Part shown: positions 4,492 through 18,777 of the stretch, in pieces | Layout of the letters: the number at the start of each line of letters is the position of its first letter | Numbering within the stretch: the stretch's first letter is position 1 | Assembly: GCF_015207985.1 (NCBI RefSeq) | Contig: NZ_JADEVV010000028.1 | Span: 1-53,187 of the forward strand | DNA length: 53,187 bases | Direction: 5' to 3' | Origin: Synechocystis salina LEGE 00031 | GTDB taxonomy: Bacteria; Cyanobacteriota; Cyanobacteriia; Cyanobacteriales; Microcystaceae | Translations under genes and position numbers: made by a program | The notes under the pieces: generated by a model | Told to the model about the DNA's origin: nothing | What the model saw: the letters and a program-made list of their open reading frames with translations, nothing else | Databases searched by the model: none

Positions 4492-4872
4492 ATGGCTAAA
4501 TCAACCATCACTTACTGGAACCCATTAACTTCAAACAATCAAAACGAGTGGCATTCCATTGAAGGTCTTGAAGGCATGGCCGAAGAACTAACCCTTAGTA
4601 TTGATTGCGAATCGGGGGAATATACTCGTTTAACCCGCTTCTTTCCCCGGGCCGACACAACGCCATTGGGAAGTAAAAGTCATGAATATCCTGAAGAGAT
4701 CTTTATCGTGAGCGGTCGCCTATATGATTGTGCTTTTGAAATGTGGTTGGAAACTGGCCATTACGCAAGCAGACCCCCCGGCGAAATTCATGGGCCCTTT
4801 AAAACGGAGGAAGGGTGTGTGGTTCTTGAAGTGTCCTTCCCAAATAAAATCAGTAATCCACCAAATACTTAG
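4492..4872 (+). CDS. Cupin-domain protein, ChrR-like
   Basis: A 126-residue single-domain beta-barrel protein. The segment SHEYPEEIFIVSGRLYD matches the first cupin motif (His, then Glu, then Gly). RPPGEIHGPFKTEEGCVVLEV matches the second (PxxxxHxP), giving a plausible metal site of His/Glu/His. This pattern is common in ChrR/anti-sigma C-terminal cupins and in sensors of oxidised or dioxygenated compounds. The zinc-binding anti-sigma half of ChrR is absent, so it is probably a free enzyme or sensor. It follows the HD-domain gene closely on the same strand. Specific function is unknown. Confidence 0.75.
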   Translation: MAKSTITYWNPLTSNNQNEWHSIEGLEGMAEELTLSIDCESGEYTRLTRFFPRADTTPLGSKSHEYPEEIFIVSGRLYDCAFEMWLETGHYASRPPGEIHGPFKTEEGCVVLEVSFPNKISNPPNT

Positions 4873-5023
4873 CAAAAAGTGTATTTGGGTCAATTTTACG
4901 GCAAATTCCGAATTAACCTGATGCACATAAAACAGTTGTAACGCCCATTCTGTAGAGTTTTTACCGTGCCACCCTGATACCGCCACCGCTGTATTGGGGT
5001 GGAATTGCCATCGAAGCAAAGAA

Positions 5024-5090
5024 GTTAGACAACGATCGCCAAAGTTAGACATGGGCGTAAACAGGAACGTAGATCTGCCCCTGGGATAGT
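5024..5090 (+). promoter_or_regulatory. EPS promoter element, copy 1 (upstream of the PGT operon)
   Basis: Three octamers lie at exact 12-bp steps: GTTAGACA (5044-5051), CGTAAACA (5056-5063) and CGTAGATC (5068-5075). A further GTTAGACA lies at 5024-5031. A -10-like GATAGT (5085-5090) starts 17 bp after the start of the last octamer. The same layout recurs before two other EPS genes. The spacing suggests an activator bound along one side of the DNA and overlapping the -35 region. The predicted transcript start is about 5097, leaving a leader of about 55 nt before ATG 5152. Confidence 0.7.
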
Positions 5091-5151
5091 AGGAATAGGT
5101 CAACGGAGCCCCCTCCCAGACCGATGCCTCCTTCACCCCCTGGTAATCATT

Positions 5152-6111
5152 ATGGCTAGCGCTGTTCAACTAATTGAAATGCCCGCTCTGTTTGGTCAAG
5201 CAGAAGTAGTTGCTCTCCATGATCAGTTAAGAAATTGGCTCCATCAAGAAATTAACGTAGAAGCCCAACTGCAACGAGTAATTTTTGATTTTGCTAAAAC
5301 CCAGGGGTTGGATAGCAGTGCCATCATTTATCTACGACGGTTAGGGCGTTGGGCCCAGGCCCGGGGCATTGAAATTATGGGTTGGAGCGTGGGGCCAAAA
5401 GTACAGACCCTTTTCCAGCAAGCTGGCATTGACGAGTATTTAACCCTGCCAGCGATCACCAACCAAGTGATTGCCCCAGAAGAAAAATTAGCGCTGGAAG
5501 TCCACCCCTCAGTCCAGTCCAAGGCAAAACGGTTGATGGATATGGTAGGGGCAGTTATGGGTTTGGGAATCACCGCTCTGTTATTTGTTCCCCTGGCGAT
5601 CGCCATTAAGTTAGATAGTCCTGGCCCAGTGCTTTATTCCCAACTGCGCTGTGGCTATCGGGGTAAACAATTTCGGATTTGGAAATTCCGTTCCATGGTG
5701 GTCAATGCCGACGACCTGAAACAGAAAGTAGAAAACCAAATTGAAGGAGCATTTTTCAAAAACGAAAATGACCCCCGCATCACCAAATTGGGTCACTTTC
5801 TACGCAAAACCAGCCTGGATGAATTTCCCCAATTTTTCAATATCCTATTGGGAGAAATGAGTTTGGTGGGTACCCGCCCCCCCACATTGGATGAAGTGGA
5901 CCAGTACGAAATCCACCACGGTGAACGGCTGGAAGTCAAACCTGGCTTAACGGGGGAATGGCAGGTCAATGGTCGCTCCTCCATCAGTAATTTTGAAGAA
6001 GTGGTAGCCCTGGATTTGCAGTACCAACAAAAGTGGAGCATTTGGCATGACCTCAAGCTCCTGGTGAAAACCATCACCGTAGTATTTTCTAAACATAGCG
6101 GTGCTTGCTAG
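5152..6111 (+). CDS. STAS-domain phosphoglycosyl transferase starting EPS synthesis
   Basis: A two-part protein of 319 residues. Residues 1-105 form a STAS domain that keeps the canonical switch site LDSSA (Asp54-Ser55-Ser56), the position phosphorylated in SpoIIAA-type antagonists. Residues about 125-319 are a bacterial sugar transferase of the monotopic small-PGT type: one membrane helix, then SPGPVLYSQ, WKFRSM, NDPRITKLG, LDEFPQ, SLVGTRPP and KPGLTGEWQVNGRS. The enzyme moves a sugar phosphate to undecaprenyl phosphate, the first step of a Wzx/Wzy EPS pathway, at the inner membrane. It heads the operon that runs to 13360. The STAS fusion suggests phospho- or partner-controlled priming, which is an inference. 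No WcaJ-type N-terminal multispan domain is present. Confidence 0.9.
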   Translation: MASAVQLIEMPALFGQAEVVALHDQLRNWLHQEINVEAQLQRVIFDFAKTQGLDSSAIIYLRRLGRWAQARGIEIMGWSVGPKVQTLFQQAGIDEYLTLPAITNQVIAPEEKLALEVHPSVQSKAKRLMDMVGAVMGLGITALLFVPLAIAIKLDSPGPVLYSQLRCGYRGKQFRIWKFRSMVVNADDLKQKVENQIEGAFFKNENDPRITKLGHFLRKTSLDEFPQFFNILLGEMSLVGTRPPTLDEVDQYEIHHGERLEVKPGLTGEWQVNGRSSISNFEEVVALDLQYQQKWSIWHDLKLLVKTITVVFSKHSGAC

Positions 6112-6159
6112 GTTGCCATTTTCCATCATTGCCTACCCCCACTAAGTTTCCCCTTCCCC

Positions 6160-7092
6160 ATGGCTACTACCCTTTCGCCCCATCTCTCCACCACTGCCCA
6201 AGCCAACCGGTTGCCCAACTTCTTCATTGTTGGCGCGGCCAAAGCTGGCACCACCGCCCTGCACCATTACCTCCAACAACATCCCGCCATCTATATGACC
6301 CCAGGCAAAGAAACTAACTTTTTTGCCTACGAAGGACAGCAGTTAAATTTTCGGGGCCCAGGGGATGAGGCGGTGGCAGATTTTTCCATCACTAATCTGG
6401 CTGATTACCAAGCCCAATTTCAAGGAGTAACTACCGAAACGGCGATCGGGGAAGCCTGTCCTTTATACCTTTACGATCGCCAGGTAGCCCAGAGAATCCA
6501 GCACCATTGCCCCACCGCAAAAATTATTATTATTCTGCGGGAGCCAGTGGCCCGGGCCTATGCCAACTATCTCCATTTAGTGAGAGATGGCCGGGAAACA
6601 ACCTTGGATTTTGCCCAGGCCCTAGCCCAGGAACCGGAGCGGACGGAAGCGAACTGGGAATGGTTTTGGCACTATCAACAGGCCGGCTACTACGCCGAGC
6701 AGGTGCGGCGATACTATGACCTTTTCCCTGCCAACCAAATTCGAGTTTACCTCTACGAAGACTTGCGGCGCGACGCCCAAGGGTTAATGAAAGATATTTT
6801 TACTTTCCTAGGAGTTGATGCCCAATTCCTGCCGGATTTCAGTGAACGGCCCAATAAATCAGGAATGCCAAAAAATCCCTGGCTCCATGGCCTGTTGACC
6901 AAACCCAATGTCCTCAAAACCCTTGTCAAGCCCCTATTACCGCAAAAACTAAGGCAGTCCATCCAGCATAGTAATTTGATTACGCCCCCCCTCGATCCGG
7001 TGCTGAAGCAACAATTGCAAACCCAGTACCGAGAAGATATTCTGGCCTGTCAAGCGCTGATCAAGCGTGACCTAACCTCCTGGCTACCATGA
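6160..7092 (+). CDS. PAPS-dependent sulfotransferase, likely EPS-modifying
   Basis: A 310-residue Sulfotransfer_1-type enzyme. The 5'-phosphosulfate loop is FIVGAAKAGTTALHHYL at residues 22-38. The 3'-phosphate site is REPVARAYANYL at 127-138. The family usually has Ser where this protein has Ala135, a small departure that may affect PAPS binding. There is no signal peptide, so it acts in the cytoplasm on a lipid-linked sugar before export. Its place between the PGT and a glycosyltransferase makes a sulfated exopolysaccharide the most likely product. It ends in an ATGA overlap with the next gene, showing translational coupling. Protein or small-molecule sulfation is less likely given the neighbours. 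Confidence 0.88.
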   Translation: MATTLSPHLSTTAQANRLPNFFIVGAAKAGTTALHHYLQQHPAIYMTPGKETNFFAYEGQQLNFRGPGDEAVADFSITNLADYQAQFQGVTTETAIGEACPLYLYDRQVAQRIQHHCPTAKIIIILREPVARAYANYLHLVRDGRETTLDFAQALAQEPERTEANWEWFWHYQQAGYYAEQVRRYYDLFPANQIRVYLYEDLRRDAQGLMKDIFTFLGVDAQFLPDFSERPNKSGMPKNPWLHGLLTKPNVLKTLVKPLLPQKLRQSIQHSNLITPPLDPVLKQQLQTQYREDILACQALIKRDLTSWLP

Positions 7093-8069
7093 AAACTATC
7101 TGGCATTTAATTGGCGATCGCCGGCCGGGAGGCTCAAACCACCTGGTCCGCAATCTGTTGAATTCTTCCCTGGGAGAGAGTTTTGCTAGCCAAACCCTGA
7201 CCCTGGAGCAAGGGCTAAAGCGAGTCAAGGGGGAGTTACCAGACGCTATCATTTTCCATTACGCCAGTGCTTGGAAATATTTACCTGCCCTGTGGCGACT
7301 GCAGACCATGGCACCGGTACATATTTGTGAGCATCACTACTGTGCTGGCTTTGAACAGCATCAAGTTAAATCTCTCCAGCGCTTCCGGCTTTTACTTAAA
7401 ACTGCCTACGGATTGGCTGATGGGGTGATCAGTGTTTCCCGAGCCCAAAAACAATGGCTAATCGGCCATAAATTAGTGCATCCAGCCAAGGTAAAGGTTA
7501 TTCGCCCGGCATCTCCCCTGGCCAACTTTTTGGCTTTGCCCCTGAAACCCCCCAGCTCGACCTTAACCCTGGGGGTATATGGACGGTTTGCGCCCCAAAA
7601 AGGCTTCGATCTCTTGTTAAAGGCGATCGCCAATGTGCCCCCGGATCTCCCAATCAGAATCAAATTGGGGGGCTACGGTGAGGATGAAGCCTTGATTAGG
7701 CAATTAACTGCTGCCCTGCCTGCAGTGCAATTGGTGGGGCCAGTGGAAGATGTACCAACTTTTTTGGCCGATTGTGACGGGGTAATTATTCCCTCCCGTT
7801 GGGAACCTTGGGGCTTGGTGGCATTGGAAGCCAAAGCGGCCGGAAAAGGTATCATCGCCACCGCCGTGGATGGACTGTCGGAACAGGTAGAGGGGTTTGG
7901 TCTGCTTTGTCCCCCAGAAGATCTGGAAATGTTGACCAAGGCGATCGCCAAGGTAAGTCCAAAACAGTTACAACAATGGGGCCAGGAAGGAAGGATAGCC
8001 GTGACCAATGCTTGGGAAAAATGTGTACAGGAATGGCATGACTATCTGACGGCGGCCATAGAGCCATAG
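7089..8069 (+). CDS. GT4-family glycosyltransferase of the EPS operon
   Basis: A 326-residue GT-B fold enzyme. The N-terminal half is short and degenerate (IWHLIGDRRPGGSNHLVRNLL). The C-terminal half has the usual features: GVYGRFAPQKGFDLLLKA, KLGGYGEDEALIRQL and the EX7E nucleotide-sugar site in PSRWEPWGLVALEAKAAG. It should add one sugar to the lipid-linked intermediate on the cytoplasmic face. Donor and acceptor cannot be told from sequence. The start ATG overlaps the sulfotransferase stop (ATGA, 7089-7092), so the two are translated together. Confidence 0.88.
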   Translation: MKTIWHLIGDRRPGGSNHLVRNLLNSSLGESFASQTLTLEQGLKRVKGELPDAIIFHYASAWKYLPALWRLQTMAPVHICEHHYCAGFEQHQVKSLQRFRLLLKTAYGLADGVISVSRAQKQWLIGHKLVHPAKVKVIRPASPLANFLALPLKPPSSTLTLGVYGRFAPQKGFDLLLKAIANVPPDLPIRIKLGGYGEDEALIRQLTAALPAVQLVGPVEDVPTFLADCDGVIIPSRWEPWGLVALEAKAAGKGIIATAVDGLSEQVEGFGLLCPPEDLEMLTKAIAKVSPKQLQQWGQEGRIAVTNAWEKCVQEWHDYLTAAIEP

Positions 8070-8185
8070 ATTAGGGCAATGGGAGCTAGCTAACTAGCGG
8101 AATGTCGTTGGCAATCTCTTACAATGAAGCCTTTACAGTCAAATCAATCCGGTGTCCAGGGACGGTTAGGGGAGAAGAAACCCGG

Positions 8186-9466
8186 GTGAAGGAATTAATC
8201 GCCAAGCTTAAAGCCAAATTTAGCCACAAAGACGGTACTTTTGTGCGGAACCTCGGTTGGCTGGGGGGATCGGGGGCGATTATTCGGGTTTCCCGGTTGA
8301 TTGCAACGGTTATCCTAGCCCGGTTTTTGACCAAGGAAGATTACGGCCTGGCGGCGTTGGTGTTAACCACCAATGAGTTTGTGCGAGTTTTTACCCGTAA
8401 CGGGGTGGTCATTCGCCTGATCCAAACTGAAGCAGAGCGGCTGGAAGAGTTGGCCGAATCGGCCTACTGGCTCAATTGGCTGATGTTTATTGGGTTATTT
8501 ATGGTGCAATGTTTAGTGGCGTTCCCCATTGCTGCTTTTTACGACAATCAACGCCTAATTTTGCCCATCTGTGCCATGGCAGTGAACCTGCTCACCATTC
8601 CCCTGGGCATTATCCAAGCGGCCCTAATTCAGCGGGAAGGACGGTTTAAAATTATTGCCCTGGCGGAGTTAAGCCAAATTTCCAGCGACAATATCCTCTC
8701 CGCCATCTTTGCCCTGTTGGGGTTTGGTCTCTGGGCGATTATTTTGCCTAAAATTTTAGTAGCCCCCATTTGGGTTTACTTTATGCGCCGCTACCATCCT
8801 TGGCGACCCTCCAAAGGATTTCACCGTCATCACTGGGGGGATTTAATTGGCTTTGGCAAATCGGTGTTGGGGGTGGAACTGTTGAATACTCTGCGTAGTA
8901 ATTTGGATTACCTAATCATTGGCCGCTTTTTGAGCGTGGAGGCTTTGGGGGTTTACTATTTTGCGTTTAATGCTGGTCTAGGTATTAGTTTGGGCATTAT
9001 CACTTCCATTAAAGCGGCTCTACTCCCCCACCTGTGCGACGTGCGGGATAACTTGGCCCAGTTCCGGGCCCGCTATTGGCAGAGTCAAAAAACCATTGCC
9101 ATGGTGATTATTCCCTTTGTGCTTCTGCAAGCCAGTTTGGCTCCTTTTTATGTGCCCCTCGTTTTTGGCGATCGGTGGGCTGGAGCCATTCCTATTTTGA
9201 TGTTAATTTGTCTATCGGCCATTCCCCGACCCTTTGCCGATGCTGCTTCCCAATTATTGCTAGCGGTGGATAAGCCCCAATGGGACCTTTGGTGGAATTT
9301 AATTTTTACTACCCTTTTTGCTGGTTGTTTAATGTGGGGAGTGCAAGGGGGCAATGTGGGGGTGGCGATCGCCGTTTTGGCCAGTCATTGGCTCTGTTTA
9401 CCTCTATTTTCGCTTTGGGCCTCCCGCACAGTATTTCGACGTTTGGCTTTGGCCGGGGAAGTATAA
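8186..9466 (+). CDS. Wzx-type lipid-linked oligosaccharide flippase
   Basis: A MATE/MOP-superfamily membrane protein with roughly 12 hydrophobic spans, beginning with GGSGAIIRVSRLIATVILARFLTKEDYGLAAL, of which the ARFLTKEDYGL stretch is typical of Wzx/RfbX proteins. It flips the finished repeat unit across the inner membrane for polymerisation. The frame stays open upstream to ATG 8102 (454 residues). GTG 8186 is preferred: it has a purine-rich AGGGGAGAAG ribosome site just ahead, and the extra 28 residues do not look like a flippase N-terminus. It ends directly before the OPX gene, with no gap. Confidence 0.88.
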   Translation: MKELIAKLKAKFSHKDGTFVRNLGWLGGSGAIIRVSRLIATVILARFLTKEDYGLAALVLTTNEFVRVFTRNGVVIRLIQTEAERLEELAESAYWLNWLMFIGLFMVQCLVAFPIAAFYDNQRLILPICAMAVNLLTIPLGIIQAALIQREGRFKIIALAELSQISSDNILSAIFALLGFGLWAIILPKILVAPIWVYFMRRYHPWRPSKGFHRHHWGDLIGFGKSVLGVELLNTLRSNLDYLIIGRFLSVEALGVYYFAFNAGLGISLGIITSIKAALLPHLCDVRDNLAQFRARYWQSQKTIAMVIIPFVLLQASLAPFYVPLVFGDRWAGAIPILMLICLSAIPRPFADAASQLLLAVDKPQWDLWWNLIFTTLFAGCLMWGVQGGNVGVAIAVLASHWLCLPLFSLWASRTVFRRLALAGEV

Positions 9467-10534
9467 ATGATGGGGCGTTGGTTGCTTACTTTGGGATTAC
9501 TTGCACTGGGTTGGCAACAAGGGGTCTGGGCCCTGCCCTTTTCCCCAGGCGATCGCCTAGAAGTTTCCATTCCCAACGAAAAATATTTTGCCGGCGTTTA
9601 TGTGGTCAACCAGGCCGGGGCGATCGAAGTGCCTTTTTTGGGTCCTGTGGCCGTGGGGGGTCTAGAAAGTGCCGCGGTGGAGAAAAAACTCCATCAATTG
9701 CTAACCAATCAGGGTTATTTTCCCCCGGATAAACTCCAGCTATCAGTGCAGGTCCTGCAATGGGCGCCGGTACAGGTAACGGTGGCAGGGGACGTATTCC
9801 AGCCAGGGCGGGTACTAATTGAAAATCCTGGAGAACCCAGCAACGAAATTACAGTGCCCCCAGAAAGTCAGTCGGTGACGGGGGATTATCCCTTTTGGCG
9901 CTACGGCATTAACGCACTCCGGGCCGTGGGGGGCGTTTTACCCACAGCGGATGTGGCCAATATTGTGGTGCAACGGGGAGAGGAAGAAATTCCCCTAGAT
10001 CTGTCGGGAGTATTTACTGGGGATGCGGTGGCCGATATTCCCCTCATGGCTGGCGATCGCCTAGTGGTGCCCAGCGCTGGCCAGGTGCAACCGGCCTTGG
10101 CCCGTCCCTCTCAAATCACTCCCCCTGGTATTAAGGTATTTATTTCCAACCTCACCGTACCCGCCAATAGTAATGCCACCTCGGCAGTGGGGAACCAACA
10201 AGAAGGCATCACCTTTCCCTATGGGGCCCGCTTTAGTCAAGCAGTGGTGGCGGCCAACTGTGTGGGGGGTACTGTCAATGTCAACGCTGATCGCCGGGCT
10301 ATTTTGGTGCGGGTGGATACGGCCAGTGGAGCAACCCTGGTCACCGAAAAACCGGTGGAAGAATTGGTGCGTAATTCCCACAGCAACACAGACAATCCCC
10401 TGCTCATGCCAAGGGACGCCATTGCTTGTTACGATTCCGGTATGACCAACACTAGGGATATTTTCCGCTCCATCACTGATTTCCTCAGTCCCCTAGACCC
10501 CTTTTTGATTTTCCGTAATCTTTTCTTCCGTTAG
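9467..10534 (+). CDS. Polysaccharide export protein, OPX (Wza-like)
   Basis: A 355-residue secreted protein. A signal peptide (residues about 2-22, ending near VWA) is followed by the polysaccharide export domain: FSPGDRLEVSIPNEKYFAGVYVVNQAGAIEVPFLG, split here only by description. A SLBB-like unit follows (PVQVTVAGDVFQPGRV). There is no lipobox Cys, unlike E. coli Wza, which is common among cyanobacterial OPX proteins. It should form the periplasmic/outer-membrane exit for EPS together with the PCP protein encoded next. A hydrophobic tail (PFLIFRNLFF) may touch the outer membrane. ATG 9467 directly follows the flippase stop; ATG 9470 is equally possible. Confidence 0.87.
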   Translation: MMGRWLLTLGLLALGWQQGVWALPFSPGDRLEVSIPNEKYFAGVYVVNQAGAIEVPFLGPVAVGGLESAAVEKKLHQLLTNQGYFPPDKLQLSVQVLQWAPVQVTVAGDVFQPGRVLIENPGEPSNEITVPPESQSVTGDYPFWRYGINALRAVGGVLPTADVANIVVQRGEEEIPLDLSGVFTGDAVADIPLMAGDRLVVPSAGQVQPALARPSQITPPGIKVFISNLTVPANSNATSAVGNQQEGITFPYGARFSQAVVAANCVGGTVNVNADRRAILVRVDTASGATLVTEKPVEELVRNSHSNTDNPLLMPRDAIACYDSGMTNTRDIFRSITDFLSPLDPFLIFRNLFFR

Positions 10535-10565
10535 GGGTTTTAACTACACCGTTAGGTTAATCGCT

Positions 10566-12092
10566 ATGGCCACCACTTCCTCCTCCCCAACTAAGGACCG
10601 GTTTCCCAACGGTAATGAATCTGAAGCCCTTAACTCCCCCGAAGATGGTGCCATGGACAATGTTGAAGTAGGGGAAATGGATGGAGAAGAGGACATCGCA
10701 ACAATTAAACCAAGATTAAACTTGCCTTTGGGGCGCATTGCTAAATATTTAACTTTGGCAGTGGGGGCCAATACATTACTGTGGGCGGGAACGTTAAGTT
10801 ACCTGAAGCACACCGCTCCCACCTACACCAGTGAATTAGTGGTGCATGTCGCTGGTAATGCCCTGGGGGTAAACCTCAACCTCCCCGACGTGGGCCAGGC
10901 GGCCACTTCCACCACCTCCGCCTTTGGCAGTTCTTCCGACCCAAGGGAAAATTACAAATTACTAGCCCTGGGGGATACGGTGATTCAAGAAGCGGCGGCC
11001 AGTGTGAGCATAGAAGTTGAAGAATTTGGTGAGCCGAAAATTATCCTCATTCCCAACACCACCACCATCCGCATTTCCCAATCGGGCCCAAGTCCCAAAA
11101 TTGCCCAACGCAAAGCCCTTAGTCTGTACCAAACCCTAGAAAGACGGCTTAATACCCTCAGGCAAATTGAACAAGAAAAACGGGATGGGGCTATTACTTC
11201 TGCCCTGGAGGATTCCCAAAACAAACTTACCCAGGCCCAAGCCCAGTTATCAAACTATAAAGCCCAGTCTGGCTTGAGTTCTTCCCAACAGGTGACTAAT
11301 TTGATCAGCACCATCGAGACTCTCCGCAAACAACGGGCGGAAAAGGTGGCCCAAAGTCAACAAATTGGCGATCGCCTACAAAGTTTGACCTTAGCGGTGC
11401 AGTTAGCGCCGGAACAGGCTCCCACGGTGTTGGCCCTGCAAACAGACCAATATTTTCAGAAAAGCTTGCAGGAATATACCACCACCAGCACAGAGTTAAA
11501 TGCTCTGTTGGAAGAGCGGGGGCCCAACTATCCCGATGTAGTGCAACTCAAACAAAAGCAAGGGGCAGCCCTGGCCACAGTACTAGAACGGGGCAAAGCT
11601 CTGTTGGGTAAGGCCATTACCCTGGAGGAGATTGAACGGTTAAATTTGGACAATAGTAACGAGTCCGGTGTGAAGCGGGGGGAACTCTTTCAACAACTAA
11701 TTACCCTCCAGGCTGAGTATGAGGGCATTAGGGCGGAGGTGGATGCGTTAACCCAACAGGTGAGCGAGCTAGAAGCTCGGCTGAAAATTATGGTGCAAAA
11801 GGAATCAGTGCTGGAAAACTATCTCCGTAAAGTGCAAATAGCAGAGGCCATTTTTACTTCCACCCTGGCCAAGGCCGATTTGGGCAAAAGTGACCCTTTT
11901 GGTTCCTTTCCCCTCATGCAATTGGTGGAACCTCCCACCTTGCCCGATACCCCCTCCGCTCCCAAAACTAAGCTGGTTCTGGCCGGGGCGGCGATCGGCT
12001 CTGTTCTGGTTACCTTCGGCCTGACATTACTGTGGTGGCGCAACACAATTTTAGTAGTACTGACCAAAATTTCTCGCCAAATCCTCGCGTGA
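10566..12092 (+). CDS. Polysaccharide co-polymerase (Wzz/PCP) without kinase domain
   Basis: A 508-residue inner-membrane protein. An acidic N-terminus of about 55 residues precedes a first membrane helix (YLTLAVGANTLLWAGTL). A large periplasmic region follows with long coiled coils (residues about 200-420). The second helix is near the C-terminus (LVLAGAAIGSVLVTFGLTLLWW). Before it lies the PCP hallmark Pro-rich stretch VEPPTLPDTPSAPKTK. No Walker motifs or Tyr-rich tail are present, so this is a PCP without the Wzc autokinase. It controls chain length and links polymerisation to OPX export. The acidic N-terminal extension is unusual. It overlaps the next gene by GTGA. Confidence 0.88.
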   Translation: MATTSSSPTKDRFPNGNESEALNSPEDGAMDNVEVGEMDGEEDIATIKPRLNLPLGRIAKYLTLAVGANTLLWAGTLSYLKHTAPTYTSELVVHVAGNALGVNLNLPDVGQAATSTTSAFGSSSDPRENYKLLALGDTVIQEAAASVSIEVEEFGEPKIILIPNTTTIRISQSGPSPKIAQRKALSLYQTLERRLNTLRQIEQEKRDGAITSALEDSQNKLTQAQAQLSNYKAQSGLSSSQQVTNLISTIETLRKQRAEKVAQSQQIGDRLQSLTLAVQLAPEQAPTVLALQTDQYFQKSLQEYTTTSTELNALLEERGPNYPDVVQLKQKQGAALATVLERGKALLGKAITLEEIERLNLDNSNESGVKRGELFQQLITLQAEYEGIRAEVDALTQQVSELEARLKIMVQKESVLENYLRKVQIAEAIFTSTLAKADLGKSDPFGSFPLMQLVEPPTLPDTPSAPKTKLVLAGAAIGSVLVTFGLTLLWWRNTILVVLTKISRQILA

Positions 12093-13360
12093 ACGATCCC
12101 ATCAAGCCCGAAAATTTTCCCGAACGGCTGGTTTGGTACAGCATGGTCTATATCTATGGCTTTTACCTCCTGGGGGCCATCTACATTGTCGGGTCGGTGT
12201 TGGGGGTAATTCTGGGACTATACGTAGGGCTGAAATGGTGGTTGCAAACGGAAGCCACCCCGGAAGCGGAAAAAATTAAAATCCATTGGCTAATCTGGGT
12301 TTGGATCATTGGCATGGCCATGATGCAGATGGCCCTGATAATTGGGCATTTGGATTTTGACCTGCCCACAAGCACCATTATTAAGTCCTCCATTGGCTGG
12401 CTCAAGGGATGGGCGGCCCTAGCCTTGTATCCCCTGGCGGGCTGTTTACCCATTCGGCCCCGACTGATTTACCGAGCCGTTTGTGTGATCTGTTTGCAAA
12501 CCCTGCTCATTTCTCCCCTACTAATCATTGCGCCCCTACTCCATTTCCCCGAAATTCTCTATGTTTCTCCCCTCAAAGCGGTGGGAGGCCCAGGCACAAC
12601 TTTTTTTGATGTTTCTTTTTACGAAGTGGATTTTGACGGTTCCATTCGCCAACGATTGTTTACCCCCTGGGGGCCGGCGTTGGGCTTTGTGGCTAATATC
12701 TATTTTGTGCTCGCTCTCAAGGAGAAAAATAAAAAATGGCGTTGGTTTGGCATTATCGGTTCCCTCTACCTGGCCCAAATTTGTAAGTCCCGCTTGGCGA
12801 TCGTTTCCCTGATTTTGACCCCTATTTTCACCTTTTGCCTGGCCCGTCTCAGTCGTCCCTTTACCCTCATGGTGTTGGGCATAGGGAGTACCATTACCGG
12901 CATCATGGCGCCCTGGTTATTCAACTTATTAGATACCGTAATGCGAAAATTCACCGAGGCCCGGTCGGAATCTAGCCGAGTCCGCACCACCTTGAAGCAA
13001 ATTGCCGGTTATCGCTGGGAAACGGAAGCTCCCATTTGGGGCCATGGCATTGTGGAATCGGGACCCCACGTGGTGGAATATATGCCCATTGGCTCCCACC
13101 ATACTTGGTATGGTTTGTTATTTGTCAAGGGCATTGTTGGTTTCTATGCTTTGGCCATTCCCATGGTTCTTAGTCTTTTTTTGTTGCTAATTAAGGCTCA
13201 ACGCTATGCAGTAGCGGAGGCGGGATTGGCAGTATTATTTATTCTTTTTCTCTACACCTTTGGGGAAAATTTAGAAATCCTCGCCTATCTTTATTGGCCT
13301 GGTCTAATTATCATGGGACTGGGTTTTTATGCTTCTGGCGATCGCCCAGATTATCAATAA
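12089..13360 (+). CDS. Wzy-like EPS polymerase / O-antigen ligase-type membrane protein
   Basis: A polytopic membrane protein of 423 residues with about ten hydrophobic segments. A large loop contains the Wzy_C/O-antigen-ligase region (SRLAIVSLIL; later GHGIVESGPHVVEYMPIGSHHTWYG), and the paired His residues resemble ligase/polymerase active-site loops. It most likely joins lipid-linked repeat units into the EPS chain on the outer face of the inner membrane. The open frame extends to ATG 12032, 61 bases inside the PCP gene. The GTG at 12089 is preferred because it forms a 4-base GTGA coupling with the PCP stop, like the ATGA coupling earlier in the operon. It is the last gene of the operon and converges with the NACHT gene 15 bases away. 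Confidence 0.85.
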   Translation: MNDPIKPENFPERLVWYSMVYIYGFYLLGAIYIVGSVLGVILGLYVGLKWWLQTEATPEAEKIKIHWLIWVWIIGMAMMQMALIIGHLDFDLPTSTIIKSSIGWLKGWAALALYPLAGCLPIRPRLIYRAVCVICLQTLLISPLLIIAPLLHFPEILYVSPLKAVGGPGTTFFDVSFYEVDFDGSIRQRLFTPWGPALGFVANIYFVLALKEKNKKWRWFGIIGSLYLAQICKSRLAIVSLILTPIFTFCLARLSRPFTLMVLGIGSTITGIMAPWLFNLLDTVMRKFTEARSESSRVRTTLKQIAGYRWETEAPIWGHGIVESGPHVVEYMPIGSHHTWYGLLFVKGIVGFYALAIPMVLSLFLLLIKAQRYAVAEAGLAVLFILFLYTFGENLEILAYLYWPGLIIMGLGFYASGDRPDYQ

Positions 13361-13375
13361 GTCAATGTCAACTAG

Positions 13376-15742
13376 CTAAGGTAAGTTGCCAGAAATTGAT
13401 GGTGCATAGGTCAAGAGATTATTTTCCAGTTCTGCCTGCACAGTGGGGCTAACGTAACAACCACTGTGGAGACATTTATGGAAAAAAACTAGCCCATGGT
13501 AGTATTGCCGCAAAAGATTACTTTGGCTGGGGCTTAGTTCAGCTACACAACCAAGCTGATGATGTTGACACACGATGGTTTTCATCCCCCGGTACCAATC
13601 TGGCCCCTGCATTCGCCACCATTGCAACAAGGAAGATTTCTCTTCCATGGGGGAAGGTAGTTGCTCTTTGCAAATTTGTAACGCTTTCGTCAAGGCAGGA
13701 GTGAGGGAAAATTTTCTTTCAATATCAAGGGCAAAACCAAGGTTTAAATACTGTTCAAAAGTAGGATTTTGGGCGAGGGACTGGGCTAAGGAGAGAATGC
13801 GGATCAATTGTAAATCTAGGGAAATTTCTTCGTGGGGATTTTCGCTCAAACTCCGGTCTAGACGGGTAGCTAAATTAAGTCCAAAATCGTAGAGAATGCC
13901 CAAATAAAAAGCCCTAATGGCCACTGGTTTATGGTTAGTTTGGAGCAATTTACTTTTGGTATCTAAATATTTTATTACAGCAATTAAACCATCATCACTG
14001 GCTACTAGGCGATCGATCTCGAATTTCAGTTGCAGTAAAAAATCATCCGCTAGGGGAACAAGGGAAATCGCCAGAGCAATAACTTCCTGCCAATGGGGAT
14101 CGGTGAGCCGTTGGGCAATAATTTCTGGGTCATTAACGACGGAATCTGCAATGGCTAATTTTTTGCGAAAAACCCACTGTTGAGCCGTTAGGTATTCCTG
14201 AAAAATGACATGGGAAAAGCAATACACTGCCTTGGCTTGCTCCACCAAAAGCCCATGTTGCACTTGAATAGCTCGTAGGACATTTTCGCTTTTGAGCCAC
14301 AGCAAATCTCCACTAATGGGGGCGCTGGCAATGCTAGCTAAATATTGTTGAATAATTAATAAAACTTGATCTTTTTCAAAATAAAAATAACCCTGCGCAA
14401 ACATGCGGGCAGCTATTTCTGATAATAGTTTTAACTTTTGGAGCAGAGTTAACTCGTTATAGCCATAGTCTGTTTGAAATGCCTGGGAGCGGGAACCCCG
14501 GTTAAGCAGAACGTTTAGCCCTTCTTTATACAGTTTGGCGGGTTTACTGGGCAGTTGAGTCCTTTCTTGGAAAGCACAGCAAATTAACTCTAGTAAGAGG
14601 GGCGTTTTGGCTAGTTCGAGGACAAAGCGATTTTCTGGTCGTCGAAGATGGGCTAATAACTGGTCGCTTTTGCTAATTTTACCATTGTCTTCAGGGACAC
14701 CGGACTGGTTAAACCAATTGTCAATATAGGATCTAATTTGTTGCTCATTGGCATTGGCAACTTCCAGGTATGTAAAACCAGTAAAAAAATAATTTTGAGC
14801 AGCAATGCGGGAAGTAATTAAGATATTATTGTTCGGAAAAGATTGCACAAACTCCTGGATTTTTTGCAGAAATTTTTCACTGGTTTTGCGGGGAATTTCA
14901 TCCAATGCGTCCAACAGTAACCAGAATTTGCCCTGTTGCAGTAACTCAGTTTGTAGCTCCGGAGTAATCTCTTCGATCGCCAATAGGGTTTGGAGGTAAT
15001 CTGCCACACTCCAATCTGGTTCATGCTGTTGGTAGCGTTCAATGTCCCGCAGGGGGATGAAAACGGGGATATGATCGGGCTGAATTTGGCTGTTGTAACA
15101 CTGTAGAGCTAGGTACTTCAACAAGGTAGTTTTGCCGGAGCCGGGCCGGCCCAAAATGACCAAATGTCCATGGTGGTCGATGGCCTCCTGAATGGATAAA
15201 CCGATGGGCTGGGGCTGGGTCACACCTTGGAGTAAAGACCCTTGTAAATCGTCCACCTCCAACCATTGTTGGTGGCTAAGGTGGGGCAACAAACTCAGAT
15301 CGGTGTAAATGTCGTCTAAGGCAAACTGCTGAGTCAAATTAAAAGAAGATTGCACCCTGCTGTACTGTTTACAGAACTGGTGCCTCAACTTAGCTTTGAC
15401 TGCTAAATAAGTTTCCTCCAAGCTTGGTGGGGGCTGGGACTCGGTGGCTTCCATAACCGGGCGATCGCCTTCCTCGGTGACAACGCCATCATTCCCAATG
15501 TCAGGGTCGTCGTCCCCCTGGGGAAGGTCCGCAATTTCTTCCCAATCCAAGCCCAACTGGAAGCATAGTTCCATAAAAATGTAACGCTCCACTGGCCGCC
15601 CGCTGAGAAACTTCCAGACCGAATTACGGGTGGAAAGTCCGGCTTCAGTGGCCAAATAGGCTTGGGTCCAGCCCCGCCTGGTCATGGCCTGCTTTGCCCT
15701 GGCCTGACCGCTAGACGAAGACTTGAGGGAGCGTTTGCTCAT
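13376..15742 (-). CDS. HTH-NACHT STAND ATPase, probable EPS regulator
   Basis: A 788-residue signalling ATPase. Residues about 12-75 resemble a phage-type helix-turn-helix (QAMTRRGWTQAYLATEAGLS). A linker with an acidic, Pro-rich part follows. The NACHT module has Walker A GRPGSGKTT (residues about 198-206) and Walker B LLLDALDEIP (about 275-284). The rest is a helical C-terminal half with no evident WD40, TPR or LRR sensor repeats. STAND proteins switch on nucleotide-driven oligomerisation. The same core occurs in bacterial NACHT antiphage proteins. Its setting, 96 bases after a response regulator gene and inside an EPS locus, favours a transcriptional regulator of EPS genes. ATG 15742 is preferred to the TTG at 15769. 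Confidence 0.85.
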   Translation of the reverse strand: MSKRSLKSSSSGQARAKQAMTRRGWTQAYLATEAGLSTRNSVWKFLSGRPVERYIFMELCFQLGLDWEEIADLPQGDDDPDIGNDGVVTEEGDRPVMEATESQPPPSLEETYLAVKAKLRHQFCKQYSRVQSSFNLTQQFALDDIYTDLSLLPHLSHQQWLEVDDLQGSLLQGVTQPQPIGLSIQEAIDHHGHLVILGRPGSGKTTLLKYLALQCYNSQIQPDHIPVFIPLRDIERYQQHEPDWSVADYLQTLLAIEEITPELQTELLQQGKFWLLLDALDEIPRKTSEKFLQKIQEFVQSFPNNNILITSRIAAQNYFFTGFTYLEVANANEQQIRSYIDNWFNQSGVPEDNGKISKSDQLLAHLRRPENRFVLELAKTPLLLELICCAFQERTQLPSKPAKLYKEGLNVLLNRGSRSQAFQTDYGYNELTLLQKLKLLSEIAARMFAQGYFYFEKDQVLLIIQQYLASIASAPISGDLLWLKSENVLRAIQVQHGLLVEQAKAVYCFSHVIFQEYLTAQQWVFRKKLAIADSVVNDPEIIAQRLTDPHWQEVIALAISLVPLADDFLLQLKFEIDRLVASDDGLIAVIKYLDTKSKLLQTNHKPVAIRAFYLGILYDFGLNLATRLDRSLSENPHEEISLDLQLIRILSLAQSLAQNPTFEQYLNLGFALDIERKFSLTPALTKALQICKEQLPSPMEEKSSLLQWWRMQGPDWYRGMKTIVCQHHQLGCVAELSPSQSNLLRQYYHGLVFFHKCLHSGCYVSPTVQAELENNLLTYAPSISGNLP

Positions 15743-15838
15743 GAATTTTTCCACAACAACAGTTAGCAAACAAAAACGCCATTACCCCACCACTATCAAC
15801 TCGGCTGCAGGGGGGAGGGGGCGGTCGGCTATCCTTTA

Positions 15839-16771
15839 TTATCCATCGATTTCCTGGAGTAGGAATCCCAGAAGATGGGAAAGATTTTCTATTTGTTGGG
15901 GAATTTCTACTTCTGCAAGATCAAGATCCGATCGCCATTGGATAATCACTCGTCCTAGGGGCTGACCCCGCCAAGCAACGGGCTGGACCGCCGTGGGAAA
16001 TAGGGCCATGGAAGGCAACTTGGTTGACCAATGGTTCTTTGCCGGGGGAGTCACACCGGCTTTAAACACAATGCCTCCATCTATTTGCAGGGAAACTAAG
16101 GCGGCAAAGTCATCATTAATGGCGGTGAAATCAATCCCCATAGACTCCACTTCCGGATCGATAACCACGAAGGGAATGGCATCGGCGATCGATGTCACCA
16201 GCACAATGCGCAATCCGTTGAAAAGTTTTAATGCCCCTGTGAGCATGGTGTTGAGGTAATTTTGGTTAGGACTAGTCTGGGCCAAAGACCGCCAATTTTC
16301 TTGCCAGAAACTATCCCAGCTCCTACGGGAAACCAACTCCTTTTGGGTTGCTTCTACTTCGTTGAACAAGGATTTGACATTAATTAGTTGATGAATGCGA
16401 CGACGGAAAGAAGACCAATGGATCGGCTTATTGATGTAGTCCGTTGCTCCGGCCGTAAAGGCTTTATCAATGGATTCTTGATCATCCAAAAAAGTGATCA
16501 TTAAAATGGGTACTTTATCCCCTCCAGGCAGAAGACGGATTTGCTCGCAACAGGTGAAACCGTCCATACCGGGCATAATCGCATCCAACAGTACAATGTC
16601 CGGCTGTAACTGGATAAATTTATCGAGGCACTCCTGACCGTTAGTGGCTTCCGCCAGCCCATAATTATCTTCTTTAAGGGCCATCAACAGTAGCGATCGG
16701 GTGACTCTATCGTCTTCAACCACAAGAACCTTAAAAGTGCGTTGCCCACCAGCCAGATCATCAGACAACAT
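15839..16771 (-). CDS. Response regulator with non-DNA-binding C-terminal domain
   Basis: A 310-residue protein. The receiver domain (residues about 12-130) is complete: acidic pair Glu19-Asp20-Asp21, phospho-acceptor Asp63 in LLDAIMPGMDG, Thr93, and Lys115 in INKP. A helical linker follows (about 130-165). The C-terminal alpha/beta domain (FNGLRIVLVTSIADAIPFV...) looks GAF-like or V4R-like, and I see no HTH or output enzyme motif. It is therefore likely to pass its signal by protein contact. The natural candidate is the NACHT STAND protein encoded next in the same direction. No histidine kinase lies beside it; the MASE1 hybrid kinase at 37595 is one possible partner but is unlinked. Confidence 0.85.
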   Translation of the reverse strand: MLSDDLAGGQRTFKVLVVEDDRVTRSLLLMALKEDNYGLAEATNGQECLDKFIQLQPDIVLLDAIMPGMDGFTCCEQIRLLPGGDKVPILMITFLDDQESIDKAFTAGATDYINKPIHWSSFRRRIHQLINVKSLFNEVEATQKELVSRRSWDSFWQENWRSLAQTSPNQNYLNTMLTGALKLFNGLRIVLVTSIADAIPFVVIDPEVESMGIDFTAINDDFAALVSLQIDGGIVFKAGVTPPAKNHWSTKLPSMALFPTAVQPVAWRGQPLGRVIIQWRSDLDLAEVEIPQQIENLSHLLGFLLQEIDG

Positions 16772-17144
16772 TATTGTGAATAAACCCTAAATTAACGAGA
16801 GATGATTGGGACCACTGCTTGCCTAAAGAAAAAATCCCACTATTGCCTGATTTTTCGGGAAAATAAAGCCCCACAGACCACCAAAAATAGTTTCCGTGCT
16901 GAGGAGGAGTGGTTTTGTCTTCGTTTCCTGCACGGGTTCGGCCCGGTAAACGGTGAGATAGGCTTGACGTACAAACTTCATTCTAACTATTTTGGGCAGG
17001 GCATTTCACCCCATTGGGTTAGACGTTTGGAACCGATTAATCAGAAGTTAGACAAATTTACCCTGAAGTTAAACATTGGCGTCAACAGAAACGTAGATCC
17101 TCGTCCTCCATCATGGGAGTTATGGAAAACGTTTCGCCCCGAGG
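16772..17144. other. Divergent 373-base intergenic region holding EPS promoter copy 2
   Basis: This gap separates the leftward response-regulator gene from the rightward GT2 gene. The part near 17018-17114 holds the conserved octamer array. A more classical promoter pair, TTGACG (16964-16969) with TATTTT (16988-16993) at an 18-base spacing, points rightward and would read across the array. On the response-regulator side I see no octamer copy. An open frame of 149 codons crosses the region (16802-17251) but has no recognisable protein features and overlaps the GT2 start, so I treat the gap as regulatory. Confidence 0.6.
17018..17114 (+). promoter_or_regulatory. EPS promoter element, copy 2 (upstream of GT2)
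   Basis: GTTAAACA (17068-17075), CGTCAACA (17080-17087) and CGTAGATC (17092-17099) stand at exact 12-bp steps. The -10-like CATCAT (17109-17114) starts 17 bp after the start of the last octamer. Extra GTTAGAC boxes lie at 17018 and 17047. The 12-base GAAGTTAGACAA at 17045-17056 is identical to that in copy 1, where it sits one base closer to the array. The predicted transcript start is about 17121, shortly before ATG 17145. Confidence 0.7.
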
Positions 17145-18194
17145 ATGCCTACGATGAAACTGGTCTCTGTGATTATTCCCCTCCACAACACCGAAGCCTA
17201 CATTGCCGATACAATTCGTTCTGTGCTGGCCCAAACCTATACCAATTTTGAACTCATAGTTGTGGATGATGAATCCAGCGATCAGAGTGCGGCGATCGTG
17301 CGTCAGTTCAAGGACCAACGAATTAAACTAATTCATCAGAAAAATCGGGGACTAGCGGGGTCGCGCAACACGGGAATTCGCCATGCCCAAGGGGAATATC
17401 TCGCTTTTTTAGATGCGGATGACCTCTGGTTGCCAGAAAAATTGGCCAGCCACGTTGAACATTTAGACCAAAATCCCCACATTGGGGTAAGTTTTAGCCG
17501 TTCTTCCTTCATTGATGGTCAAGGTCAACCCTTGGGAATCCATCAAATGCCCAAGTTAAAAAACATTGATGCCGGCCATCTCCTCTGCCGTAATCCCGTG
17601 GGCAACGGTTCCGCTCCAGTGATCCGTCGCCAGGTATTGAATGATATTAGTTTTTTGGACGATCGCCATGGTTTTCCCGAGTTCTGTTACTTTGACGAAG
17701 CGTTCCGGTTGCGGTCAGAAGACATTGAGTGTTGGATTCGCATTGCTATCGTGACCGACTGGGTAATAGAAGGCATTCCCGCTGCGTTGACTCTCTACCG
17801 TGTCAATAATCAAGGACTGTCGGCGGATGTGGAGTTACAATTCCAGTCCTGGCTCCAGGTAATGGAAAAAACTGCCCAGTATGCACCAGCATTGGTGGCC
17901 CGATGGGGCAAACCGGCCAAGGCTTATCAACTGCGTTACCTGGCTCGGCGGGCAGTGCGTTTCCAAGACACAGACCATGCTCTGAATTTATTAGGCCAGG
18001 CCCTCAGCACCCATTGGCAAATTATTCTGGTGGAACCCCGTCGCACCGGCCTGACCATTGCCGCTGCCTGTTTGCTCAAAATCTGTCCCCCTACTTTTTA
18101 TCAATCCATCGAGGCGATCGCCATTAAAGTTACCGGAGCTCTGCAGGCCAGAAAAATTGAACGGGAAGCCAACGCTTCGTCCCAACTGGCCTAG
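17145..18194 (+). CDS. GT2-family glycosyltransferase of the EPS locus
   Basis: A 349-residue enzyme with a GT-A fold. The N-terminal nucleotide-binding part shows SVIIPLHNTEAYIADTIRSV and VVDDESSDQS. The metal-binding DxD is in AFLDADDLWLPEKL. The family acceptor region contains SEDIECWIRI. The C-terminal 80 residues are helical and may sit on the membrane. It likely adds a sugar to the EPS repeat unit in the cytoplasm. ATG 17145 and ATG 17154 are both usable; neither changes the domain. It has its own promoter array and a second array follows it, so it may be transcribed partly alone. Confidence 0.88.
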   Translation: MPTMKLVSVIIPLHNTEAYIADTIRSVLAQTYTNFELIVVDDESSDQSAAIVRQFKDQRIKLIHQKNRGLAGSRNTGIRHAQGEYLAFLDADDLWLPEKLASHVEHLDQNPHIGVSFSRSSFIDGQGQPLGIHQMPKLKNIDAGHLLCRNPVGNGSAPVIRRQVLNDISFLDDRHGFPEFCYFDEAFRLRSEDIECWIRIAIVTDWVIEGIPAALTLYRVNNQGLSADVELQFQSWLQVMEKTAQYAPALVARWGKPAKAYQLRYLARRAVRFQDTDHALNLLGQALSTHWQIILVEPRRTGLTIAAACLLKICPPTFYQSIEAIAIKVTGALQARKIEREANASSQLA

Positions 18195-18227
18195 GGAATT
18201 TACTAGGAATTTCATCAAAAGCATTAG

Positions 18228-18274
18228 GTTAGACAATTACGTAAACACGACTGTAAACATGCCCCCCTCATACT
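18228..18274 (+). promoter_or_regulatory. EPS promoter element, copy 3 (upstream of the Alg14/Alg13-type pair)
   Basis: GTTAGACA (18228-18235), CGTAAACA (18240-18247) and TGTAAACA (18252-18259) stand at exact 12-bp steps, and this copy is closest to the consensus. A -10-like CATACT (18269-18274) starts 17 bp after the start of the last octamer, as in copies 1 and 2. The extra upstream GTTAGACA box of the other copies is absent. The predicted transcript start near 18281 leaves a leader of about 35-45 nt before the next gene. Outside the array the three regions do not align. Confidence 0.7.
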
Positions 18275-18324
18275 GAAAATTAAGGAAAACGGGGTATGCC
18301 CCCACCATCAATGGGATGCAGACA

Positions 18325-18777
18325 ATGAAACTTTTACTGATTAGCTCCAGCGGCGGCCACTTCAATGCCCTATGTCAACTGACTTCCTTCTGGCAAAACC
18401 ACGATCGCCAATGGGTCACCTTCCCCACCGCCACCACCCGCAACTACCTCGCCCAGGAAGAAGTCCATTGGGCCTTTGGCCCCACCAACCGAAATTTGCC
18501 CAACCTCTGCCGCAATCTGGGTTTAGCTGTCCGCATTATCTATCAGGAACGGCCGGACATGGTGATCACCACTGGGGCCGGGGTAGCGGTGCCCTTCCTT
18601 TTATTCGCCAAACTGTTGGGCATTAAAACTATTTTTATTGAATCTTTCACCAGGGTTAATGACCTCAGCCTCTCTGCCAAATTAATTCTGCCCTGTATTG
18701 ATGTGCTTTATGTGCAGTGGAAACAGTTACAACAGCGTTATCCCCAAGCTAAGTTAATCGAAGTTTTAGCCCAGTAA
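18325..18777 (+). CDS. Alg14/PssD-type glycosyltransferase subunit
   Basis: A 150-residue protein matching the membrane-anchoring Alg14-like half of a split GT-B enzyme. It has the opening strand and glycine turn MKLLLISSSGGHFNAL and the stretch DMVITTGAGVAVPFLLFAKLLG, followed by FIESFTRVNDLS. In bacterial EPS systems (PssD, EpsE-like) this subunit binds the membrane and pairs with an Alg13-like catalytic partner, which is encoded next. The pair adds a hexose or uronic acid to the lipid-linked precursor. ATG 18316 would add three residues; ATG 18325 matches the usual family start. Confidence 0.85.
   Translation: MKLLLISSSGGHFNALCQLTSFWQNHDRQWVTFPTATTRNYLAQEEVHWAFGPTNRNLPNLCRNLGLAVRIIYQERPDMVITTGAGVAVPFLLFAKLLGIKTIFIESFTRVNDLSLSAKLILPCIDVLYVQWKQLQQRYPQAKLIEVLAQ

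Follow-up and report, generated by a model that had tools for sequence, protein, structure and literature searches.

Octamer arrays in a Synechocystis salina polysaccharide cluster as probable operators of an XssQ-like NACHT activator

Introduction

Which protein reads the evenly stepped rows of octamers that precede three separate exopolysaccharide genes in Synechocystis salina LEGE 00031? The window analysed here, a 53,187-nucleotide stretch (contig NZ_JADEVV010000028.1), had been interpreted in a sequence-only reading as carrying promoters bound by an activator that overlaps the −35 region. That reading missed that the activator is known (XssQ), that arrays 1 and 2 flank its gene, and that the first box is the published XssQ site. 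In the part of PMC8205485 available to us, the XssQ box of PCC 6803 (pSYSM) is given as AAGTTXXAC, single or tandem; binding of purified XssQ by EMSA is shown for one promoter, xssE; expression of the target genes drops in an xssQ mutant; and XssQ and XssR together suffice in another cyanobacterial host.

Results

Layout of the arrays

The octamers of the three arrays, the hexamers GATAGT, CATCAT and CATACT, each starting 17 bp after the start of the last octamer, and the distal box shared by arrays 1 and 2 were all found where they had been described (Table 1). Transcript starts were predicted 12 bp past the first base of the NANNNT hexamer, and the probable start codons downstream lie at 17145 or 17154 (array 2) and at 18316 or 18325 (array 3). 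The published site AAGTTXXAC is exact in the first box of arrays 1 and 2; the first box of array 3 reads AGGTTAGAC, with one mismatch, which is why an exact search misses this array. No TTGACA-like −35 was found at 16-18 bp from the −10 hexamers, and no consensus −35/−10 promoter overlaps the three window arrays. If the hexamer corresponds to −12, the last octamer sits in the −35/−10 spacer and not on the −35 itself. Two mechanical 149-aa ORFs over arrays 1 and 2 (4720-5169, minus strand; 16802-17251, plus strand) were taken as spurious because both run into conserved gene starts.

Table 1 Arrays, hexamers and associated genes in the window
Feature	Position	Strand	Details
Distal box, array 1	5024..5031	+	GTTAGACA; 20 bp upstream of box 1; offset −61 from −10
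Array 1	5044..5075	+	5044-5051 GTTAGACA, 5056-5063 CGTAAACA, 5068-5075 CGTAGATC; pitch 12 bp
Putative −10, array 1	5085..5090	+	GATAGT; predicted start ~5097
Priming sugar transferase with STAS domain, XssP-like	5152..6111	+	Pfam; 63% to XssP; downstream of array 1
Sulfotransferase	6160		follows the priming transferase
Glycosyltransferase	7089		follows the sulfotransferase
XssQ-like activator	13376..15769	−	HTH aa 10-83, NACHT NTPase 203-355, NCH2 693-787
XssR-like response regulator	15839..16771	−	Pfam receiver domain; 49% over 181 aa to PCC 6803 XssR
Additional box upstream of array 2	17018-17025	+	GTTAGACG
Distal box, array 2	17047..17054	+	GTTAGACA; 21 bp upstream of box 1; offset −62
Array 2	17068..17099	+	17068 GTTAAACA, 17080 CGTCAACA, 17092 CGTAGATC
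Putative −10, array 2	17109..17114	+	CATCAT; predicted start ~17121
GT2 glycosyltransferase	17145..18194	+	Pfam; downstream of array 2
Array 3	18228..18259	+	18228 GTTAGACA, 18240 CGTAAACA, 18252 TGTAAACA
Putative −10, array 3	18269..18274	+	CATACT; predicted start ~18281
Alg14-like glycosyltransferase subunit	18316..18777	+	PF08660 above cut-off; downstream of array 3
GT28 C-terminal domain gene, Alg13-like	18799-19464		PF04101 above cut-off; follows the Alg14-like gene; product presumably Alg13

Specificity within the genome

The pattern GTTARACA-N4-CGTMAACA has three exact matches in the 3.97-Mb genome (G000), all in the window, with none on the other strand and none for the reversed control; with up to two mismatches there is no excess (16 versus 23 in the control). 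Since this pattern derives from the three window sites themselves, a model trained on PCC 6803 is the fair test. Built from five PCC 6803 XssQ promoters only, such a model scores window arrays 1, 3 and 2 at 34.7, 32.4 and 29.1 in their exact registers, and the next independent window site at 10.7, leaving the arrays as the only strong matches. Profile R1, whose training set includes the window arrays, gives genome-wide E-values of 7.5e-9, 7.8e-7 and 9.5e-9 for arrays 1, 2 and 3; its next match has E 0.079, and the many equally scoring genome matches that would have spoken against the arrays did not appear. The window arrays are not chance occurrences.

Exact matches to the pattern in G015, G021, G027 and G052 have no fitting third box and were set aside as chance. 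An array-like match at L083 16354 (score 21.7) was dropped because it lies inside a 209-aa ORF. The profile matches on G006:C17 resemble partial tandem repeats.

The xss promoters of PCC 6803 can be read in the same layout

The five published PCC 6803 XssQ promoters are readable as three to four octamers, in registers picked by eye, with NANNNT at 17 bp from the start of the last box. Across all eight promoters (three in the window, five in PCC 6803), A2 and T6 of the −10 hexamer are invariant. Several PCC 6803 box steps are 11 bp rather than 12, and xssA has a weak third box. In the converse test, a window-trained model clearly found three of the five PCC 6803 promoters, with xssL barely over background and xssE unlisted. 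A sixth pSYSM promoter is predicted in the xssO-xssP interval (L105 16698-16746, minus strand, E 1.1e-4). The available part of the published description (PMC8205485) does not give the full layout read here: three to five octamers, stepped mostly by 12 bp, with the start of the last one 17 bp ahead of a putative weak [CG]ATACT-like −10, and no consensus −35. It states neither the pitch, nor how many boxes there are, nor how far they stand from the −10.

An XssQ homologue encoded between the arrays

Homologues of both XssQ and XssR are encoded near the window arrays, the XssQ-like gene between arrays 1 and 2 and probably starting at aa 10 of the ORF. Its product is 38% identical to PCC 6803 XssQ overall, with 78% in the HTH and 34% in the remainder, so that the HTH is conserved about twice as strongly as the rest of the protein. 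NACHT and NCH2 domains lie above the Pfam cut-off (PF05729, PF22727), and the best folds are those of NLRC4, NLRP3 and NOD2 (E ~1e-10; whole-chain TM 0.2-0.4), which places the protein in the STAND/NACHT class. HTH_31 and HTH_3 match only below the Pfam cut-off (E 0.004 and 0.013), and the HTH model resembles 434 repressor/Cro, SinR and C.AhdI with weak E-values (best 5.9e-3). As modelled, XssQ is a NACHT/STAND activator with an architecture like that of an animal immune receptor and a lambda-repressor-like HTH. Pfam recognised in it neither an OmpR-type winged HTH nor the bacterial transcriptional activation domain of SARP/AfsR, and in the XssR homologue no DNA-binding domain, only the receiver.

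No XssS orthologue stands beside the window cluster; the best G000 matches are on other contigs (44-47%), and a partial match to the XssS kinase region in the window (38600-39364, 41%) is 19 kb off. XssS lies close to the cluster in G001 and G002. The missing XssS bears on the signalling input, not on the operator.

Recurrence in other cyanobacteria

Intergenic stretches from 97 other XssQ loci (the set after removal of 17 duplicates or close relatives, with duplicates judged from contig extent and position) were searched with a box matrix trained on the eight promoters only. The search yielded 25 triplets at pitch 12, HIP1-bearing arrays included, and the reversed control yielded none; keeping coding DNA in reduced the excess, to 34 versus 15 at threshold 15 and to 12 versus 5 at threshold 18. 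For NANNNT the counts were 26/68 at +17 and 19/68 at +29 (17+12), against a mean baseline of 8.1% over all distances except 17. Pitch 9 was also in excess (15 versus 3); many of these cases are distal boxes of Nostoc-type arrays (~9), and others are simple repeats or coding DNA. The constant phasing that had been claimed is thus borne out in that pitch 12 and distance 17 peak in independent loci, but with pitch 11 in PCC 6803 and ~9 in Nostoc distal boxes, exact phasing is not strict.

HIP1 (GCGATCGC), considered as a confounder, occurs in 23/76 distinct arrays, always at offset −22, and in none of the arrays of the eight discovery promoters. Other species, too, have distal boxes at −61 (z 3.8, 6/22 rows, after 7/29 rows from G013 and G026 were dropped). 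The 29 rows comprise 27 of the 39 non-training R1 hits at E<=0.0171 (12 left out) and two weaker hits from the same clusters; G020 and G026 are close to the model-building G013, and G026:C145 57275 is nearly a repeat of G026:C99.

Among 155 genomes of the class, 19 of the 20 array-bearing ones encode the XssQ HTH, G166 being the exception; arrays occur in 19/68 genomes with the HTH versus 1/87 without (p 4e-7, uncorrected for phylogeny). At a stricter HTH cut of E<=1e-30, chosen afterwards (the search cut was 1e-12), the counts are 19/43 versus 1/112. Arrays at E<=0.01 are absent from 24 of these 43 strong-HTH genomes, a weak absence because scoring was limited to the 37 best first-look candidates in each genome. 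G003 has an XssQ-like gene and no array at E<=1 with R1, a search in which at most 99 candidates were scored per genome; in searches of more than 40 genomes, scoring covered a part of the candidates. A single-protein scan of genome contigs gave no match, whereas an alignment scan did.

Linkage in the class sample held for 24/33 array hits, with the model-feeding G000, G002 and G050 left out. At the named loci, xssQ is no more than 1 kb away for 21 of 32 array hits, in a zone that makes up 11.7% of flank length, and all 21 point away from the gene; L188, L194 and L223 in this count overlap model-building loci. Of 44 hits in all, a separate listing covers 32, which differ from the 32 of the E<=0.01 set. 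When 25 ORFs, hand-picked among those downstream of arrays, were compared one-way with 12 window proteins, there were 19 matches, at 48-70% identity, to the priming, GT2, Alg14 or Alg13 protein and three to XssR. The reading of the arrays as activator-bound promoters is supported, as the five PCC 6803 promoters can be read in this layout and genes homologous to the three window genes carry arrays in other genomes.

Three other explanations were weighed. It is unlikely that XssQ reads only one or two AAGTTXXAC boxes and that octamers 2-4 are degenerate promoter by-products: all 8 promoters share the C of the middle box, as do all 80 pooled rows (duplicates included), the pitch-12 excess is missing from the reversed control, and conservation across the pooled arrays is higher at the −29 and −17 boxes than at the −41 box. 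Binding by an OmpR/PhoB-type response regulator at a Pho-box or HLR1-like direct repeat, rather than by XssQ, is less likely still; such regulators typically use direct repeats of ~8 bp that overlap the core promoter, but XssR shows a receiver domain only and the arrays track the XssQ HTH in 19 of 20 array-bearing genomes. The published EMSA, moreover, used purified XssQ, and its targets fall in the xssQ mutant (PMC8205485). Recent promoter duplication without constrained spacing, to which two features common to arrays 1 and 2, the distal box and a third octamer CGTAGATC, might point, is contradicted and highly improbable, as had been anticipated: the flanks of the three arrays differ, and homologues of all three window genes (priming, GT2 and Alg14) are preceded by arrays in G001 and G002 although their XssQ proteins are only 41% and 38% identical, so the three arrays are old.

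Discussion

Layout, conservation of the layout and association with XssQ are direct observations, and the three arrays most likely form docking rows for XssQ. We consider it highly probable, as a whole, that they are operators of the homologue encoded at 13376-15769. One N-terminal HTH would occupy each octamer, and the NACHT domains would form a head-to-tail multimer, with 12-bp direct repeats letting at least three sites fill together; the oligomer is suggested by the fold class. The promoter-proximal HTH, at about −29 to −22 between −35 and −10, would replace the −35 element, and bound XssQ, through a contact with sigma or RNA polymerase that we infer, would recruit the polymerase to the weak [CG]ATACT-like −10. 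Genes for sugar priming, sulfation and glycosyl transfer would then be on only with activated XssQ, probably via XssR.

Known systems offer partial parallels. PhoB at the Pho box also has direct repeats that take over from the −35 and keep a constant spacing to the −10, but it is a response regulator with an 11-bp pitch and no NACHT domain. The DNA-binding domain, sensor and box sequences of E. coli MalT are unrelated to those of XssQ. MalT is, as described in the available part of PMC4381067, a STAND activator whose multimers bind several boxes cooperatively and recruit RNA polymerase. AfsR/SARP of Streptomyces, in the part of PMC10936776 available to us, binds direct repeats from −40 to −19 over the −35/−10 spacer of a promoter with a weak −10 (CACTGT); it differs in its OmpR-type DNA-binding domain, two 11-bp repeats and side-by-side dimer, whereas XssQ has a lambda-repressor-like HTH and three to five octamers at mostly 12 bp. 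The most likely mechanism is that XssQ multimerises on the repeats and takes over the role of the −35 in a manner close to that of AfsR. The xss promoters of PCC 6803 (PMC8205485, available part) are alike in the first box, the target-gene classes, the activator and response regulator homologues and the re-read geometry; unlike the PCC 6803 system, the window cluster includes an OPX gene of its own and lacks an adjacent XssS. More tentatively, and with the odds somewhat against it, XssQ may represent a pan-cyanobacterial NLR-like activator: a head-to-tail NACHT multimer with one lambda-repressor-like HTH per 12-bp step and the last protomer standing in for the −35, serving as one code for surface polysaccharide, secreted-protein and, in a subset of genomes, sigma-factor genes from Synechocystis to Nostoc.

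With the layout, a loosely defined published motif becomes a precise promoter code of box, pitch and spacing to the −10, able to predict XssQ targets in other cyanobacteria, among them targets that a strict match to that motif overlooks. The array DNA would be a simple read-out of the number and order of NACHT protomers that might bind, making STAND multimerisation testable through spacing mutants, and the arrays offer a modular switch for making sulfated polysaccharide.

XssQ-type promoter arrays in a polysaccharide cluster

The three arrays in the window are a real, conserved promoter architecture of XssQ, the NACHT/STAND activator of the xss polysaccharide genes in Synechocystis PCC 6803. 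They lie in a Wzx/Wzy-type polysaccharide cluster, as annotated from ORFs and Pfam domains (table below). No orthologue of the sensor kinase XssS was found adjoining this cluster. The cluster has its own OPX-like gene, unlike the xss cluster of PCC 6803, which PMC8205485 describes as having none.

Arrays, genes and neighbouring features of the polysaccharide cluster
Feature	Position	Remarks
Priming sugar transferase	5152	STAS domain; 63% identity to XssP
Sulfotransferase	6160	
GT	7089	
Wzx-like	8102	
OPX-like export gene	9467-10534	
Probable PCP	10566	GNVR below the Pfam cut-off
Putative Wzy	12032	No Pfam match; called from position and sequence only
NACHT protein	13376-15769	Strand opposite to the 5152-12032 genes; 38% identity to PCC 6803 XssQ
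Receiver-domain response regulator	15839-16771	Same strand as the NACHT protein; 49% over 181 aa to XssR
GT2	17145	
Alg14-like	18316	
GT28-C, Alg13-like subunit	18799	
MASE1-GGDEF protein	19898-21655 (-)	Adjoins the cluster; likely diguanylate cyclase
Array 1	5044/5056/5068	Hexamer GATAGT at 5085
Array 2	17068/17080/17092	Hexamer CATCAT at 17109
Array 3	18228/18240/18252	Hexamer CATACT at 18269

The sequence-only reading had described octamers at 12-bp steps, each array followed by a -10-like hexamer 17 bp past the start of the last octamer, and inspection found all three arrays exactly so. The register of the first two octamers occurs three times in the 3.97-Mb genome, always in the window, and never in a reversed control; with two mismatches allowed in this two-octamer pattern there is no excess (16 genome matches versus 23 in the control). 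A sequence-only profile of 19 arrays, with the window's three in its training set, gives those three E-values of 7.5e-9 to 7.8e-7 and the next match in the genome 0.079, so that the window arrays alone stand out in this genome.

Cross-prediction with the XssQ regulon of PCC 6803

In PCC 6803, XssQ is reported to activate xssA-E and xssL-P, and in EMSA on xssE native DNA competed but mutant DNA did not (PMC8205485); in S. elongatus, XssQ and XssR are described as enough for induction (PMC13125312). Neither array pitch nor distance to -10 was found in the accessible parts of these XssQ descriptions. The five target promoters on plasmid pSYSM can be read as three or four octamers at a pitch of 11 or 12 bp, picked by eye and alone no clean test, and in these by-eye registers all five have a loose -10 hexamer (NANNNT) 17 bp past the last octamer start. 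An alignment of the five with the window's three, anchored at their last boxes, has just two columns past the box that never vary, out to +49: an A at +18 and a T at +22. The first clean test of the array reading was cross-prediction between window and PCC 6803. A model from PCC 6803 only scores the window arrays 34.7, 32.4 and 29.1, the next independent site reaching 10.7, and a window-only model ranks xssN (34.3), xssP (31.5) and xssA (28.9) highest in PCC 6803, followed in fourth place by a sixth, unreported site (16.1); xssL (10.3) barely exceeds the background of 9.6, and xssE is absent from the top 14.

The sixth array-like site lies on pSYSM between xssO and xssP (locus L105 16698-16746, minus strand; GATACT -10; E 1.1e-4), outside the five promoters of PMC8205485, and has a counterpart in Synechocystis B12 (L106 2765-2813); a short ORF is the sole ORF seen after it.

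Independent test of pitch and -10 distance

A single-octamer matrix, built from 26 boxes of the window and PCC 6803 only, was applied to 97 XssQ loci in which ORFs of at least 150 aa were masked (356 kb unmasked). At threshold 15 in this masked sequence, 16 of the loci together contained 25 triplets spaced 12 bp apart, against none in the reversed control. Pitches of 8, 10, 11 and 13-16 yielded 0-5 (controls 0-4), pitch 9 yielded 15 versus 3, and the mixed pitches 11/12 and 12/11 yielded 10 versus 1 and 5 versus 2. In unmasked sequence the pitch-12 contrast shrank, to 34 versus 15 triplets at threshold 15 and to 12 versus 5 at threshold 18. Of 68 box-only matches, 26 have NANNNT at +17 and 19 have it at +29, against an average of 8.1% across distances 8-44 other than 17; the strict form [CG]AT[AC][CA]T occurs 9 times at +17, 10 times at +29 and at most twice at any other distance. 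Pooling 76 distinct arrays gives the -10 consensus [C/G]ATACT, with A and T partly selected by the model and the chosen registers.

The HIP1 palindrome GCGATCGC is present in 23 of the 76 arrays, spread over many other genera, always at offset -22 from the -10 and bridging the last two boxes. Distal boxes at about 9-bp pitch, for example CGTATACAACTTATACAAGTTATACG, occur just upstream of xssQ in four Nostoc loci (L231, L217, L229 and L232).

Conservation of the arrays and association with XssQ

Scanned over 41 loci, the eight-promoter model selected arrays above 18.0, the top score in 82 simulated loci, in seven genomes (G002, G026, G036, G041, G048, G050 and G054), with near-copies in G004 and Synechocystis B12 counted apart and a weaker array in G013 (16.7). 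The 19-array profile, searched over 58 genomes, also recovered many arrays outside its training set; of the 39 non-training matches with E<=0.0171, 27 were fetched for inspection, along with two weaker matches. No ORF of at least 150 aa encloses any of 40 arrays, these 29 and 11 more. Compared with 12 window proteins, 22 of 25 chosen downstream ORFs match one (priming enzyme 5, GT2 7, Alg14 2, Alg13 5, XssR 3). The arrays are conserved at homologous genes, G001 and G002 having them before all three window gene types. In the genus of G013, G020 and G026 they precede GT2, priming and Alg13-like genes, as well as a small ORF followed by a sulfotransferase-like gene. Elsewhere they stand before genes for a DUF4114 protein, a TPS-domain protein, a GT2 with a glycosyl-hydrolase domain and an epimerase; the ORF closest to an array is in several cases distant, small or missing.

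Two arrays stand upstream of sigma-70 family genes with Pfam regions 1.2, 2, 3 and 4, one at a distance of 366 bp (L138 4490, G036) and the other at 642 bp (L154, G054, contig position 49627), which may mean that a sigma factor belongs to some XssQ-type regulons.

Across 155 genomes of the class, 68 encode the N-terminal DNA-binding domain of XssQ (HTH, E<=1e-12) and 20 have an array (E<=0.01), 19 of them among the 68 (Fisher 4e-7, without correction for kinship); 14 of 24 non-training array matches are on the same contig as an HTH gene and within 40 kb of it. As a counter-example, G166 has an array-like match and no HTH match. Within 80 named loci, 21 of 32 matches at E<=0.01 fall no more than 1 kb from xssQ, a zone making up 11.7% of flank length, and all 21 point away from xssQ. 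In the 58-genome set, 18 of the 48 genomes with an XssQ match have an array at E<0.01, compared with 0 of the 10 that have no such match (p 0.02, kinship uncorrected). Many XssQ-bearing genomes, and G003 among them, yielded no array among the candidates scored in the profile searches.

XssQ and a proposed mechanism

The XssQ model (pLDDT 81) has its best fold matches in NLRC4, NLRP3 and NOD2 (E ~1e-10, whole-chain TM 0.2-0.4). The HTH model (pLDDT 86) is similar in fold to 434 repressor/Cro, C.AhdI and SinR, with E-values that are weak even at best (5.9e-3). Window and PCC 6803 XssQ share 78% identity in the HTH and 34% in the remainder, a sequence contrast that would fit, as expected, a conserved operator with a drifting sensor side.

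With the hexamer placed at -12, the octamers would cover about -53 to -46, -41 to -34 and -29 to -22, and 12 bp per step would turn neighbouring sites by ~50 degrees, with bound protomers presumably winding around the DNA. AfsR, as described in PMC10936776, is likewise a STAND activator with repeats near a weak -10, although its repeats are two, of 11 bp, at -40 to -19, where it contacts RNA polymerase; MalT reportedly requires multimerisation to bind its boxes cooperatively (PMC4381067). By analogy with this AfsR placement and MalT multimerisation, we propose that an XssQ multimer on the repeats may stand in for the -35. The activator XssQ and its core box were already known; what is added here is the array rule and its reach.
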